Positions 5,955-63,716 of a DNA stretch of 64,000 bases are shown here, piece by piece; the first letter of the stretch is position 1; each line of letters starts with the position of its first letter. Origin of the DNA: Terriglobales bacterium (GTDB taxonomy: Bacteria > Acidobacteriota > Terriglobia > Terriglobales > Acidobacteriaceae); assembly GCA_016185365.1 (NCBI GenBank), contig JACPNP010000021.1:1-64000 (forward strand), written 5' to 3'. The position numbers and the translations under genes were made by a program. Below the pieces are notes generated by a model, which was given only the letters and a program-made list of their open reading frames with translations, was not told where the DNA came from and ran no database searches.

Positions 5955-7493
5955 ATGCGGTCGAAACTTTGGATCCTGATCACGGCCCTGTTGCTGGGAA
6001 GCACGATGTCGGCGCAGATCGGCGAACGCCGCAAGCTGGTGTTGGAACCAAAAGCCACATTGAAGACGGAGCCGGCGGCCTGGACACACGCTCCCATGGT
6101 CCCGGCGCCCATCACACGGAAGGAACAGCGGCGGGTCGTCGTGAATTGGGAAGCGCGCGAGACCAAGGCGGAGATCGCCCCGGGCGTGATCTACGAAGAT
6201 TACTGGGCGTTCGAAGGCCGGGTCCCCGGCCCGGTGCTGCGCGTGCGCGAAGGCGACCTGGTGGAGGTGCATCTCACCAACAACATCACCAGCATGAGGA
6301 ACCACAACATTGATTTTCACTTTGTGACCGGCCCGGGTGGCGGCGCGTCGTCGCTGAACGTGGCTCCGGGCGAGACCGCGGTGCTCGAGGCCCGGGCCCT
6401 GATGCCCGGCTTCTATATGTTCCATTGCGCCAGCCCGGACATTCCCACGCACATCGCCAACGGCATGTTCGGATTCGTGATCGTGGAACCGGCGGAGGGT
6501 TTGCCTGCCGCGGACCGCGAATACTACGTGGTGCAACACGAGCTCTACACGCTCAACGGCAACAAGGGCAAGCAGACTTTTTCCATGGAGCGCGGCGACC
6601 GCGAAGACGCGCAATATGTGGTCTTCAACGGCGCGGTCGGCTCCACCATGGGCCCCAAGGCCCTGAAGGCGAACCTCGGTGAGACCGTCCGTTTGTGGGT
6701 GGGCAATGCCGGACCGAATTACATCTCGTCGTTCCATGTGATCGGCCAGATCTTTTCCAATGTCTACCGCGAGGGTGACATCCTCTCGCCTCCCGGCCAC
6801 GGCATCCAGACCACGCTCATCCCGGCCGGAGGTTCGGCCGTGGTGGAGTTTGCGTCCTCCGTGCCCGGCACATTTTTATTGGTGGACCACGCCATCTTCC
6901 GCCTGCACAAAGGCGCGGCCGCTTCGATCGTGATCGACGGGCCCAAGAATGGTGAAGTGTTCGATCCCGTCACCGCCGGAGCCAAAGCCATGACCATGAG
7001 TGACAGTGACCACGTGGCCGCGCCCGCCGCCCATGATCATGCCGCGCCGTCGATGGAGAAACCGGCCGCGCCTCCTGCGGCCGCGCCGCGCAAGACCGTG
7101 CCCAAGAAGCCCGCAAAGCCCGTGTCCCTGGCCTACCCGATCACCAGCTTCAGCGCCGCCAGTTTTCCCGAGGAATTGGAGGATCTAAAGAGCTCGGTGA
7201 ATGCGATGAGCGGTAATGTGGTGATCAAGATGCTGCCCGGCGCCGGCAACTACAATCCCGACCCGGCCAACTCGTATTCATCGCCGCATGTGACGGTCAG
7301 GTCCGGCAGCAGGGTCACGTTCCTCAATACCGATGACATGGTCCACTTCAACAAGGATGACAAAGGCGAGTTCCAGACTCCCATGCTGAAGTCAGGCATG
7401 GCGTTCAGCCATGTGTTCAGCAAGCCCGGCGTATACCACTACACCTGCATCCCTCATCCGTGGATGAAGGGCACGATCACTGTCGTGAAGTGA
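5955..7493 (+). CDS. nirK: Copper nitrite reductase (NO-forming) with C-terminal cupredoxin domain
   Basis: Reduces nitrite to nitric oxide in the cell envelope. The 512-residue product starts at ATG 5955 behind a strong AAGGAGGA and has a signal peptide (MRSKLWILITALLLGSTMSA). Copper ligands can be placed: type 1 H117, C158, H166, M171 (FHCASPDIPTHIANGM) and type 2 H122, H157, H312. The catalytic Asp and His equivalents are D120 (HNIDFH) and H261 (SFHVIGQ). After residue ~330 comes an Ala/Pro/Lys-rich linker with His, then a third cupredoxin domain ending YTCIPHPWMKG (C498, H501, M504), probably a tethered electron donor. It is regulated by the Crp/Fnr box upstream. Ric nearby fits NO stress. 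A different multicopper oxidase activity is less likely. Confidence 0.88.
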   Translation: MRSKLWILITALLLGSTMSAQIGERRKLVLEPKATLKTEPAAWTHAPMVPAPITRKEQRRVVVNWEARETKAEIAPGVIYEDYWAFEGRVPGPVLRVREGDLVEVHLTNNITSMRNHNIDFHFVTGPGGGASSLNVAPGETAVLEARALMPGFYMFHCASPDIPTHIANGMFGFVIVEPAEGLPAADREYYVVQHELYTLNGNKGKQTFSMERGDREDAQYVVFNGAVGSTMGPKALKANLGETVRLWVGNAGPNYISSFHVIGQIFSNVYREGDILSPPGHGIQTTLIPAGGSAVVEFASSVPGTFLLVDHAIFRLHKGAAASIVIDGPKNGEVFDPVTAGAKAMTMSDSDHVAAPAAHDHAAPSMEKPAAPPAAAPRKTVPKKPAKPVSLAYPITSFSAASFPEELEDLKSSVNAMSGNVVIKMLPGAGNYNPDPANSYSSPHVTVRSGSRVTFLNTDDMVHFNKDDKGEFQTPMLKSGMAFSHVFSKPGVYHYTCIPHPWMKGTITVVK

Positions 7494-7754: not shown

Positions 7755-8309
7755 TCAAATCTTAGGGAAGTCAATCTCACCGTCGATCAATCTCATAATC
7801 AACGTACCATTGTCCTTAACCCATTTATTTGGAATGCTTTTCCGATATCTCTGAGGGTATGGGTCCGGATATTCAGCTTTCCATTTGTCGAAGAATTTGG
7901 ATGCCTTTTTCCCAGTAACGAATCTAAGCTCAACACGCTTCAAATTGTCCGAATGACTAAAAAACAGATGACCTACACGAGAGTCGTCATCCAATTTCTG
8001 CTTTCCGGTGTCTTTGTGATACTGGTACTCAAAACTTCCGCCCTTCTCGGCGGACTTAACCTCGTACTTCTTCAGGTCCGTGCCTTTTCCGCGCTTTGTG
8101 CCTTCGTCCCTAACCAAGATCGATGCGAAAACTTCCCAATCAGATGGCAGCACCTTCCCGGCGCCATGGATGTCTCGGGCAAGATACAGTCTTAGTTTTC
8201 CCTGAAGAGGCCCGTACATATATGCATGGAAAAACATCAGGGCTTTTTCGAAATCAAGATCGGATGGAGGCGACATCACTAAGGGCTTGGGCTTTCGAAT
8301 TCTTGCCAT
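7755..8309 (-). CDS. Probable type II restriction endonuclease
   Basis: A 184-residue basic protein, third in a minus-strand operon after vsr and a C5-cytosine methyltransferase. I do not recognise its family by sequence, but GTDLKKYEVKSAEKGG fits a PD-(D/E)xK active site (D, then E-V-K six to eight residues on). Position and size match the restriction partner of the methyltransferase. Its ATG (8309) lies 56 bp inside the methyltransferase gene; an internal ATG at 8276 would cut the overlap to 23 bp. Base composition is clearly lower in GC than the flanks, like the rest of this operon, suggesting recent transfer. Recognition site unknown. Confidence 0.6.
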   Translation of the reverse strand: MARIRKPKPLVMSPPSDLDFEKALMFFHAYMYGPLQGKLRLYLARDIHGAGKVLPSDWEVFASILVRDEGTKRGKGTDLKKYEVKSAEKGGSFEYQYHKDTGKQKLDDDSRVGHLFFSHSDNLKRVELRFVTGKKASKFFDKWKAEYPDPYPQRYRKSIPNKWVKDNGTLIMRLIDGEIDFPKI

Positions 8310-9393
8310 TGCGCAGACCTATTTGTCCGTTGCTGGAGATGCAATTTCTAATTACCCACTGTACCGCAGGGACGCACACTGCGTCACCAAAACCCAGCAA
8401 TGCCATGTTTTCAGGCACGTCAATGGTAAATTCCGGCGCTCCCTGTAATCTCGCATATTCCCGCGCCGTCATGTTCCTGACTCGCCACCGACCGCGCCCG
8501 GCCTGGATAACGAATTGCTTGCTGCTCCCACCTCGGGGCGTACGTAGACAGCCCGCAATGCCATCTGTGCGCAATTCCGCTCTGCACTTGCCTTCTCGTA
8601 TCCTTTTGTAAACCGTTGCAAATGAGTCCGACTGCGACCTGACGATTGTCTGTAATTTCTCCCGATGCAATTCGTTCATCTGAGAATAAAGATGTTTCTT
8701 GCGATCGTTGCCCCACCAAATTGACGAAGAATCGGGAAACCGCTCGAGTAACTGAGAAAGGGTCTCTCGCTTGATATTTAGGGGACTCAAGTTCGAAATA
8801 GACCAATCCAGTCCCGGATTCTTCAGAATGAAATCTACTACGGCTTTGGGCCGGGCTAAATGTGTCCTGAGCAGTCCATTGTTGCTATTCGGAATAGGTG
8901 GTTTCCCGATGATGAAAAGCCGCGGACGGCTCTGGGGAACGAAAAATCTGGCATCGACTACAACAATGTCACATGCATATCCTAGTGAATTTAGTGTCCT
9001 AAGAATTTCACGTAAATCGCGACCTTCATTGGAAGTCAATAATCCGAGTACGTTTTCCAATAACACCCATCGGGGACGCTTTGAAGCCATTCCTTTCAGA
9101 ATGCGCGCAAATTCCCAAAACGTTGATGAATGTTTACCGGCAAGGCCGGCTCGGTTTCCCGCTAGTGAGACGTCAATGCAGGGGAATGATGCAGTGGCAA
9201 GGTCGACCTTGGGAACAGATTCAGAGGTGATGTCTTGAATGTCACAATGCCGAAAATCCGTCCCCCCAAAGTTGCCTTGATACATTGCAAACTTCTTTTC
9301 GTCATTATCGTTGGCAAATACCACTTGCCAGCGCTCATTTTCTAGAGCCATGCGGACCAATCCAATACCTGAAAAAAATTCCGCCGCCCTCAT
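8254..9393 (-). CDS. DNA (cytosine-5)-methyltransferase
   Basis: Transfers a methyl group from SAM to C5 of cytosine in a specific site. The 379 residues hold the family motifs in order: I (EFFSGIGLVRMALE), IV with catalytic Cys72 (SFPCIDVSLAG), VI (WVLLENVLGLL), VIII (QSRPRLFIIG), IX (REYARLQG) and X (GFGDAVCVPAVQWV). The target-recognition region lies between VIII and IX. Start ATG overlaps the vsr stop by 4 bp (ATGA), and the downstream nuclease gene overlaps its 3' end, so the three genes are translationally coupled. Low GC marks it as acquired. Confidence 0.95.
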   Translation of the reverse strand: MRAAEFFSGIGLVRMALENERWQVVFANDNDEKKFAMYQGNFGGTDFRHCDIQDITSESVPKVDLATASFPCIDVSLAGNRAGLAGKHSSTFWEFARILKGMASKRPRWVLLENVLGLLTSNEGRDLREILRTLNSLGYACDIVVVDARFFVPQSRPRLFIIGKPPIPNSNNGLLRTHLARPKAVVDFILKNPGLDWSISNLSPLNIKRETLSQLLERFPDSSSIWWGNDRKKHLYSQMNELHREKLQTIVRSQSDSFATVYKRIREGKCRAELRTDGIAGCLRTPRGGSSKQFVIQAGRGRWRVRNMTAREYARLQGAPEFTIDVPENMALLGFGDAVCVPAVQWVIRNCISSNGQIGLRNGKNSKAQALSDVASIRS

Positions 9394-10024: not shown

Positions 10025-11425
10025 GTGAGCCAGGCGGCCAACGCGCTCTATCGCAAGCTTCCCTCCGTGGATGAGCTGCTGCGCACCACGGCCATGCTGG
10101 AACTGGCGGTGCGCGAAGGCAATGCGGTCGTGGCCGAGGCCACGCGCGTGGTGCTGGCGCGTCTGCGCGAAGAGATCGCCGCGGGACATCTGGACACCGC
10201 CGGCGTCGACCTGGCCGTCACCGGCATCCATGATGCCGTGGAGCGCGAGTTGCGGCGCAACCTGGCGCCTTCGCTGCGCCCGGTGATCAACGCCACCGGC
10301 GTGGTCCTGCATACGAACCTCGGTCGCGCGCCGCTTTCCCGGCCCGCCATCGAACGCATCGCCGCCACCGCCGGCGGATACTCCAATCTTGAATTCGACC
10401 TTGAGACCGGACAGCGCGGCAAGCGCGACGTCCACGTGCAGCGCCTGTTCGCCAAACTGCTGGGCCCGGCCGCCTATGAAGCGCACACCGTGGTGGTGAA
10501 CAACTGCGCCGCCGCCGTGCTGCTGGCGCTGAACACCCTGGCCGAGGGCGGGGAAGTCATCGTGAGCCGCGGCGAGCTGGTGGAGATCGGCGGCAGCTTC
10601 CGCGTGCCCGAGATCATGGCCAAGAGCGGGGCCACGCTGCGCGAGGTGGGCACCACCAACCGCACCCGCATCGCCGATTACGAGAACGCCATCACCGAGC
10701 GGACCCGGCTCCTGTTGCGCGTGCATCGCTCGAACTTCGCCATCGTCGGATTCACCGAGCAGCCTTCGCTGGAGGAGTTGGTGGCGCTGGGCAAGAAGCA
10801 CAAGGTCCCGGTATTGGAAGACCAGGGCAACGGTTCACTCTTCGACCTGAGGCAAGTGGGTGTGAACAACGAATCGGGAGTGATGGAGAGTCTGCGCGCC
10901 GGCGTGGACGTGGTGACCTATAGCGGCGACAAATTGTTAGGTGGCCCACAGGCCGGCATCCTCAGCGGACGCAAGGAGTGGATCGCGAAGATCCGCTCCA
11001 ACGCGCTCTTTCGCGCCTTGCGCCTCGATAAGCTGGCCTATGCCGCGCTGGAAGCGACACTGGCGGAGTATGTGCGCGGCTCGTATGACACGGTCCCGGC
11101 CTTGCGGATGATGCGCATTTCCGCGGATGTGCTTCGGATGCGCGCCGAGGCGCTGAAAGCCCGGTTGCGTCATCCCAAGCTGGCGGCCGAAGTGGTCGCC
11201 GGCGAATCCGTGATCGGCGGCGGCACCGCGCCCACGGCCACGCTGCCCACGTTCCTGCTCGCGGTCACGCACAAAGACCTGAGTGCGGATGAGCTGCAAG
11301 CCCGCCTCCGCGCCAACGACCCGCCTATCATCGCCCGCGTGGACGAAGGCCGGGTGATGCTCGACCTGCGCACGGTGTTTGAAGAGCAGGTGGCGGCCCT
11401 GCAGGAAGCGCTCAGTCGTTTGTGA
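10025..11425 (+). CDS. selA: L-seryl-tRNA(Sec) selenium transferase
   Basis: SelA converts Ser-tRNA(Sec) to selenocysteinyl-tRNA(Sec) using selenophosphate and PLP. The 466-residue product shows RPVINATGVVLHTNLGRAPL, VVNNCAAAVLLALN, SRGELVEIGGSFRVP, GTTNRT and the PLP-lysine motif YSGDKLLGGPQAG. GTG 10025 (SQAANALYRKLPSVDELL) matches where SelA proteins start; a longer in-frame start at 9953 is unlikely. No selB, selC or selD is in the window, so they must lie elsewhere if the pathway is complete. This gene supports reading the in-frame UGA of the SelW-like gene at 55538-55804 as selenocysteine. Confidence 0.95.
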   Translation: MSQAANALYRKLPSVDELLRTTAMLELAVREGNAVVAEATRVVLARLREEIAAGHLDTAGVDLAVTGIHDAVERELRRNLAPSLRPVINATGVVLHTNLGRAPLSRPAIERIAATAGGYSNLEFDLETGQRGKRDVHVQRLFAKLLGPAAYEAHTVVVNNCAAAVLLALNTLAEGGEVIVSRGELVEIGGSFRVPEIMAKSGATLREVGTTNRTRIADYENAITERTRLLLRVHRSNFAIVGFTEQPSLEELVALGKKHKVPVLEDQGNGSLFDLRQVGVNNESGVMESLRAGVDVVTYSGDKLLGGPQAGILSGRKEWIAKIRSNALFRALRLDKLAYAALEATLAEYVRGSYDTVPALRMMRISADVLRMRAEALKARLRHPKLAAEVVAGESVIGGGTAPTATLPTFLLAVTHKDLSADELQARLRANDPPIIARVDEGRVMLDLRTVFEEQVAALQEALSRL

Positions 11426-30189: not shown

Positions 30190-31295
30190 TTGCGAAATGC
30201 CTTGCGGGTATTTTTCATAAGATGAATGACAGAGGATCAGAAAACACATCGACACCCAATCCCCCTGGGGCTTAAGCCCCAGGGGGATTGGGTGTCAAGC
30301 TTTTGGGGTGCGAAATTTTCAGGAAGCGCGGTGGGTGGAAAAAGCGAAAAATCGCGTTTCAGGGAGAGACAAAAGCAGATCCGTCACTTCGCTCAAGATG
30401 ACACGGCGAAAGGCAGTTTCAAGTATTAGGTCAACGGCGGATGGTCGCGGGTACAGCACGGTTTCAACCGTGCGACACGCCGCAAACAACCCCCGGCTTC
30501 AGCCGCTGGGGTAAACGCTCTTTGAAAATTCGTGCCGCCTATTCGCCTTCGGCTCACCCCGGCCTAAAGGCCGGGGCTTCCACCTTAGGCAGGTGCTTCC
30601 ACCATGTGCCACGGCTTCCGCCGTTCGTCGCTTCGCGAGTCAGGGCTAAAGCCCTGACCTACCCATTTCGCCCGCCACGGGCGGGCTGTGCCGTCGGCTG
30701 AAGCCGACTCTGGAGACGCACGCGCGCCTACCCCGCACTCACGTGCGGGGCTATCCGGTATGTCGTCGCTGCGCGACTCGGATGATGCGAATGTTTTTAT
30801 TTACTTTGCGTCTCTTTGCGTCCTTGGCGGTAAGGGTTTAATCCGATTTGATCCGCTCTGATCCGTGGTCAGGTTTTAGTGTTTAGGTGGAAGCACCGGC
30901 CTTTAGGCCGGTGAAAAAGCCCACTAATATCCCGGGCTTTAGCCCCTGAGGTGATTGTCCTTTGAAAATTCGTGCCGCCCCTAAAGGGGCTCGGGACGTT
31001 TTGGGGCGTTATCCCAGGCCTTACGGCCTGGGCTATTATCTTGCGGCCCGCCGGGCCTGAGGATCCCGAATCTCTGCGGCCTTTGTGTCCTCTGTGGTGA
31101 AAAGGTTTTGATCAGACATGATCCGATCTGATCCGCGGTCAGATTTGCTTTTGATCGGAACATGATCTGGTGTTGGTTTTCTCCGCGTCTCCGTGCCTCC
31201 GCGGTGAGATCCGCCTTGATCCGTTCGGATCCGCGGTTGGTTTCAAAGGATTTGTTGTTGGCCTGCGGCCTGCTGCCGACGGCCTGCGACGGCGC
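30190..31295. repeat. 1.1-kb cluster of palindromic repeats
   Basis: No gene. At least eight short palindromes of the type GG(G)CTaAAGCC(C) or CCGGCCTTTAGGCCGG occur, e.g. near 30495, 30560, 30645, 30690, 30738, 30898, 30938 and 31013. CTTTGAAAATTCGTGCCGCC is present twice (30520-30539 and 30960-30979). Between them are half-copies of another family ('gcgtctctttgcgtcc' near 30809; 'ctccgcgtctccgtgcctcc' near 31180) and 'gatccgatctgatccgcgg' words. It includes the 46-bp perfect palindrome listed separately. Confidence 0.8.
30251..30296. repeat. Perfect 46-bp palindrome
   Basis: The 23-nt arm beginning GACACCCAATCCCCCTGGGG and ending CTT is followed without any spacer by its exact complement ending TGGGTGTC. 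It sits 62 bp after the FRG gene stop, in a position where a terminator or an insertion end could lie; no T-run follows. The terminal 8 bp match those of the inverted repeat at 38184-38242. Confidence 0.9.
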
Positions 31296-55537: not shown

Positions 55538-55804
55538 TTAATGCGGTGAGTCGCGCGCATTCAGCTTAGCGAGTTGCTCCACCAGGCCATCTAGATCGGG
55601 ATAACCAGCGCCAAAGCTGCGCGTGAGCCAATTCCCGCCGCGTTCGGCGATGGTCTTGCCGTCCGCGAGAACCTCAAATTGACCGGTCTTGCCAGGAGTC
55701 CTGACGGCCTCTATTCCCAGACGCTCTTTGATAAGGGCCGCGAGACTCGCGACCTTGGACTTATTGTTCAGTCAGGTGGGGCAATAGACGATTTCGATCC
55801 TCAT
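55538..55804 (-). CDS. SelW/Rdx-family thioredoxin-like protein with in-frame UGA (probable selenoprotein)
   Basis: Reading from ATG 55804 gives MRIEIVYCPT, then UGA at 55774-55772, then 77 more codons to TAA at 55538-55540. Translating UGA as Sec gives an 88-residue protein with CPTU in place of the family's CxxC/CxxU. It continues LNNKSKVASLAALIKERLGI, TGQFEVLADGKTIAERGG and GAGYPDLDGLVEQLAKL, all as expected for Rdx/SelW proteins. AGGA precedes the ATG by seven bases. A SECIS-like hairpin begins 15 nt after the UGA. selA is in this window. The alternative, a Cys-to-stop pseudogene, is less likely because the rest of the frame is clean and conserved. It would be a redox protein. Confidence 0.82.
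55733..55756 (-). promoter_or_regulatory. Bacterial SECIS-like hairpin after the SelW UGA
   Basis: On the minus strand the RNA AAGGUCGCG pairs with CGCGGCC(C)UU (one bulged C, one G-U pair) around the loop AGUCU. It begins 15 nt after the UGA, with its loop about 24-28 nt away, the distance at which SelB binds in known bacterial selenoprotein mRNAs. The stem also encodes KVASLAAL, so it is limited by coding needs. Confidence 0.6.
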
Positions 55805-55861
55805 GGGGCTGTCCTGTGCATCGATTCGCCCGGCAATTGTATTCCTAATAACCGCCTACGG

Positions 55862-63344: not shown

Positions 63345-63716
63345 AGCCCGGTTTCTCGTTCCTGGAAATCGCCTTTTCGCCCAATCAGATCAGGCGGGGC
63401 AGGCGGCAAAGCCGCCGCTAGAAAATTGCCCAACACGTAAGGGCTGGGTCAGCTACCAACGAGAGAAGAGGCCACGGAGGGGCCGGTACCCAGGCATCGT
63501 GTCGCCCTCTCCGAGGGCTTTCTCCAGCAAACGAAAGCAACCCAGGCCTTACGGCCTGGGCTATTTTCTTTCGGCGCGTTCCGCGCCTGGAACAGAGTGG
63601 TCCGCCGTTTCCACATATAGAGGTTTCCCGATTGTTGAATGGTCTGTTACAGTCACTGCGAAAAGCTTCAAAATAGAAATCAAGGCTCCGAACAACCACC
63701 AGGAACCAGAAACGGA
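63345..63716. repeat. Intergenic repeats before the phosphatase gene
   Basis: CCCAGGCC-TTAC-GGCCTGGG (63541-63560), followed by CTATTTTC, is a hairpin whose 25-nt context is identical to 31013-31037. A short 'ggcaaagccgccgc' palindrome (63407-63420) and 'accaggaaccagaaacgg' words near 63698 also occur. The promoter of the next gene probably lies near 63630-63680. Confidence 0.7.

Follow-up and report, generated by a model that had tools for sequence, protein, structure and literature searches.

The small gene at positions 55538–55804 of the window (the whole 64,000-nucleotide stretch of DNA that was analysed) raises the question of whether it has been broken by a stop codon or is an intact gene in which that stop is read as selenocysteine (Sec). 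Despite the stop, the gene is almost certainly whole and encodes a SelW-family redox protein that contains selenium, and we put the probability that the locus is a SelW/Rdx selenoprotein gene, with UGA-11 decoded as Sec by means of SelB and an RNA hairpin, at roughly 95%. The sequence-only reading that singled out the locus had proposed a SelW-like selenoprotein, and this proposal is supported by conservation of the frame and of the UGA, a covarying SECIS hairpin, matches to the Rdx family and to a SelW-type fold, the presence of selA and selB, and the finding of a further Sec gene, fdhA, elsewhere in this genome.

An 88-codon frame with UGA at codon 11

The interval first proposed for the gene is right, while its strand, which had been left unstated, is the minus strand, i.e. 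complement(55538..55804); a plus-strand reading of the same positions was rejected, as it gives no sensible product. The minus-strand gene consists of 88 codons followed by a TAA stop, and its sole interruption is the TGA at codon 11 (55772–55774, minus strand). Translated with TGA as U, it yields the 88-residue product MRIEIVYCPTULNNKSKVASLAALIKERLGIEAVRTPGKTGQFEVLADGKTIAERGGNWLTRSFGAGYPDLDGLVEQLAKLNARDSPH. This translation reproduces the protein sequences quoted in the sequence-only reading and confirms that the UGA is the eleventh codon and falls at the family's CxxU position (CPTU). The ATG and ribosome binding site had also been identified correctly: AGGA, the likely binding site, is found at 55812–55815 (minus strand), 7 nt 5′ of the ATG, and a purine-rich GGAG or GGA is also found 5′ of the start in homologues.

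Downstream of the UGA is a bacterial SECIS-like hairpin (55736–55754, minus strand) with the 7-bp stem GGUCGCG/CGCGGCC and the loop AGUCU, which starts 24 nt after the UGA. We propose that UGA is decoded as Sec in the standard way, through SelB and a SECIS element, and that the product is a thioredoxin-like redox protein. Translation would start at the ATG at 55804 on the minus strand; SelB would attach to the hairpin 24 nt 3′ of UGA-11 and deliver Sec-tRNA(Sec) to the ribosome, UGA-11 would be read as selenocysteine, and translation would run on to the TAA at 55538–55540. The product would have a thioredoxin-like fold in which the C-P-T-U redox motif lies after strand 1 and before helix 1, and would probably act as a thiol/selenol oxidoreductase via a Cys8–Sec11 selenenylsulfide. 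Insertion of Sec in this organism and the presence of tRNA-Sec and selD are presumed in the mechanism, as are the redox activity with its partner and the physiological function.

A scan of the window for in-frame TGA codons returned 277 candidates. A SECIS-type hairpin of 8 bp accompanies only a few of them, and within the top 40 by score it is found only in the SelW-like gene and in one other. No further convincing UGA-interrupted gene was found in this whole-window scan.

Selenium machinery and a second Sec gene

The window harbors selA, encoding L-seryl-tRNA(Sec) selenium transferase, at 10025–11425 on the plus strand, exactly where it had been placed from the sequence (TIGR00474, 561 bits against a cut-off of 267.9); an alternative start exists at an upstream GTG (9953). 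For the genome as a whole, represented by an assembly of 2.38 Mb that is 89.5% complete, the evidence comes from family and pattern searches. The sequence-only reading had named selB, selC and selD as the genes to look for. Of these, selB is present (G000:C23:28023-29891, 381 bits against a cut-off of 242), while neither selC (tRNA-Sec) nor selD was found in the 2.38-Mb, 89.5%-complete assembly. For selD there are only low-scoring relatives, which by sequence look like ThiL and PurM. The matches to the tRNA-Sec model proved to be ordinary Ser, His, Leu, Cys, Arg, Lys, Tyr and Thr tRNAs, and a tRNA-Sec pattern search gave two chance matches and nothing credible.

A second selenoprotein gene is found in the same genome. 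The formate dehydrogenase alpha gene, fdhA (G000:C34:98332-100384), contains an in-frame TGA at 98701, at the catalytic Sec position (SCNRT-U-HAPS, the UHxP motif), within an intact frame of 684 residues. A SECIS-like hairpin with the loop GGUCU follows 18 nt after this UGA. The N-terminal iron-sulfur part of the protein (profile positions 1–51) matches a separate open reading frame about 3 kb downstream (103018–103170).

One alternative to Sec insertion at codon 11 is that the lineage has recently lost Sec decoding together with selC and selD. UGA-11 would then act as an ordinary stop, the gene would be a newly formed pseudogene, and selA and selB would be what is left of the system. The failure to find either selC or selD in the assembly is what such a loss predicts, and the chance of missing both, if they are independent, is about 1%; the genome is also small for its family (2.38 Mb). 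Moreover, one homologue, in genome G215, has GGA in place of the UGA and a weakened hairpin, showing that Sec losses at this site do occur. Against this explanation, selA and selB are both intact and score far above their cut-offs, the SelW-like gene itself shows no damage to its frame or hairpin, and the long fdhA frame and its hairpin are likewise intact, which counts against a true loss of Sec decoding. The assembly lacks about 10% of the genome. The same kind of gap is seen in G001, a genome of the same family, whose assembly has no tRNA-Sec match above 45 bits and yet keeps a UGA-containing selD (G001:C3:11595-12518). We therefore consider a recent loss of Sec decoding very unlikely.

The absence of selC and selD is the one real gap in the case for Sec insertion. 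We read it as assembly incompleteness because all ten genomes with close homologues contain selD and eight of the ten contain tRNA-Sec. In a set of nine genomes from the class-wide scan, which partly overlaps these ten, tRNA-Sec was found in 9/9, and among 80 relatives about 54 match the tRNA-Sec model strongly, with at least 58 bits. The 16 genomes of the selD search yielded 14 full genes, of which 12 themselves contain a UGA.

Conservation of the UGA, the frame and the hairpin

A search of 84,980 species genomes identified ten close acidobacterial homologues, 57–77% identical over the aligned protein. All ten have TGA at codon 11, as do all 25 distinct aligned sequences, which come from independent assemblies. 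In a class-wide scan of 399 genomes, another eight strong matches had TGA; three of these are genes already found in the larger search, and one also has a TAA right at its end. A single match had no stop. Phylum-wide, 71 of 396 sampled acidobacterial genomes contain a match, either to the SelW-like gene or to a more distant relative, nearly always with exactly one TGA. In the loci that were read base by base, the TGA is at the CxxU position. The distant homologues L110 (genome G508) and L112 (genome G527) have a TAG in addition to the TGA. The TAG of L112 falls within the conserved part, and both could reflect either decay or assembly error.

The frame 3′ of the UGA, which the sequence-only reading had described as open and family-like, is also conserved: 215, 143 and 623 substitutions fall at codon positions 1, 2 and 3, a marked excess at third positions. 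According to the sequence-only reading, orthologues with decay of this frame, or with stops that truncate it away from the redox site, would speak against a selenoprotein. This is clearly not the pattern observed: the UGA is at the CxxU position in all but one homologue, which has Gly there.

It is also conceivable that the conserved element is an open reading frame on the opposite strand and that the minus-strand frame is merely its shadow, since one antisense frame is open over codons 12–80 in 14/16 sequences. That frame, however, is broken in the window and in the homologue L025, and single-base codon differences divide 2183:1210 between synonymous and nonsynonymous in the sense frame, compared with 681:2712 in the antisense frame. 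We regard an antisense gene as highly improbable.

Nor does the TGA appear to come from faulty sequencing or assembly, or from a common nonsense mutation in a gene with Cys at this codon, an explanation to which we assign a negligible probability. The match to the Rdx family is weak, and a single base change turns TGA into a Cys codon (TGT or TGC); nevertheless, independent assemblies show this TGA in 25 distinct sequences, which already excludes the explanation. In addition, no Cys form was seen among the matches covering codon 11 in the class- and phylum-wide scans, despite a search profile that had Cys at the Sec column and so did not penalise Cys forms. Matches without a stop do not span codon 11, with a single exception. 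This is the G215 homologue (L096, 1507–1752, minus strand), which has Gly (GGA) at codon 11 and a GTG start and is found in a genome that still has tRNA-Sec. It is possible that it arose by loss of Sec without a Cys intermediate, and it would then be a natural case of Sec loss that did not pass through Cys.

The hairpin is conserved as a structure. Stem pairing holds in 97.1% of cells across the 25 distinct sequences, and 4/7 pairs show changes on both sides. In total, 25 cells are changed on both sides, compared with 6.3 in shuffles, and shifting the partner by 1–3 columns destroys the pairing. RNAalifold recovers the same stem unaided. In the window, the hairpin folds at −16.5 kcal/mol (z −3.5), and no shuffled sequence was equally good. 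A published bacterial SECIS model specifies a loop of 3–9 nt with a G in its first two positions, a stem of 4–16 bp, a spacing of 16–37 nt and a minimum free energy of −7.5 or lower (PMC13188914), and the window hairpin (AGUCU, 7 bp, 24 nt, −16.5 kcal/mol) agrees with it in every respect. The codon for Ser20 is AGT in 18/20 sequences, whereas AGT accounts for 7% of Ser codons in window genes, an excess that fits selection on the GU of the loop. An Rfam search of the locus gave no family match; the covarying alignment itself provides a ready model for detecting further members of the branch.

Decoding of UGA as another amino acid, through a reassigned code or plain read-through, has nothing in its favor beyond the open frame and next to no probability, given that ordinary window genes end in TGA (e.g. 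at 7491 and 15743) and that the SECIS hairpin, selA and selB point to Sec.

Family, fold and known relatives

The sequence-only reading had suggested comparing the 88-residue product with the Rdx/SelW families. The product narrowly passes the Pfam Rdx threshold (PF10262, 23.1 bits against a cut-off of 22.6), and this family matches 12/16 branch members at E ≤ 0.001 (best 1.7e-6). It falls below the curated NCBIfam cut-offs of TIGR02174 (CXXU_selWTH; 20.8 bits, E 3.5e-4, cut-off 34.2) and NF041051 (SelTWH_Campy; 25.8 bits, cut-off 88). An AlphaFold2 model (pLDDT 79) has the thioredoxin-like SelW fold, with a strand at residues 3–7, C8-P-T-U11 directly after this first beta strand, and a helix at residues 12–29. 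The best PDB matches in a fold search are SelW-related (E 7e-5, TM 0.69–0.73). At E ≤ 0.001 there are 21 matches from six entries, including 2p0g, 2fa8 and 2obk; three of the six are named as SelW-related or selenium-binding, and the other three, from structural genomics, agree with them in size and fold. A profile search of PDB sequences returned only unrelated, low-scoring matches. By its predicted fold and its motif, the protein is a divergent branch of the SelW/Rdx family, and the CxxU motif, by analogy with the known family, points to a thiol/selenol redox role.

Selenoproteins of the SelW-like kind have been on record in bacteria since the surveys of the Sargasso Sea and of 2006 (PMC1088965, PMC1794560), and Acidobacteria were listed with selenoproteins in 2006. 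The window protein shares with this family (PF10262; SELENOW-like, CxxU, PMC13188914) the CxxU after the first strand, the thioredoxin-like fold, the single small domain, and the in-frame UGA followed by a bacterial SECIS. It differs in that it scores below the TIGR02174 and NF041051 cut-offs and that the Pfam similarity ends near residue 52, leaving outside the matched part a C-terminal stretch, GGNWxTRxFGAGYPD, that is conserved across the branch. The SelW genes of Epsilonproteobacteria (SelTWH_Campy, NF041051) likewise encode Sec-containing proteins and were completely missed in genome annotation (PMC4607533); with 25.8 bits against 88, the window protein is not that equivalog. The SECIS of the same genome's fdhA resembles that of the SelW-like gene in its 7-bp hairpin and GU-containing five-base loop (GGUCU vs AGUCU), whereas the protein encoded is a different one and the spacing from UGA to loop is 18 nt rather than 24 nt.

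The gene is a solid but ordinary addition to a known family whose members often escape routine annotation. The acidobacterial branch is probably under-annotated, since a standard gene call does not reveal its member here, which also scores below the curated NCBIfam cut-offs. In a literature search that was not exhaustive, we found no paper describing this branch. No gene neighborhood involving the window is common to the homologues; their loci share only overlapping antisense open reading frames and, in one pair of loci, a few distant genes. No relatives of the protein were found in the viral contigs searched. At somewhat less than even odds, these genes could represent an undescribed, Sec-only Rdx branch of the Acidobacteriota, with its own C-terminal GGNWxTRxFGAGYPD element, a patchy distribution and no shared neighborhood; the lack of Cys forms among the matches would then suggest a function in which Cys cannot easily replace Sec.

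Two other features of the window may be mentioned. A C-5 cytosine DNA methylase gene (8254–9393, minus strand) adjoins a 184-aa open reading frame without a Pfam match (7755–8309, minus strand), which is possibly its restriction partner. The Acido-Lenti-1 RNA motif (RF01687) is found in three copies on the plus strand (30731–30778, 31013–31058 and 63541–63588), two of them within 330 bases.
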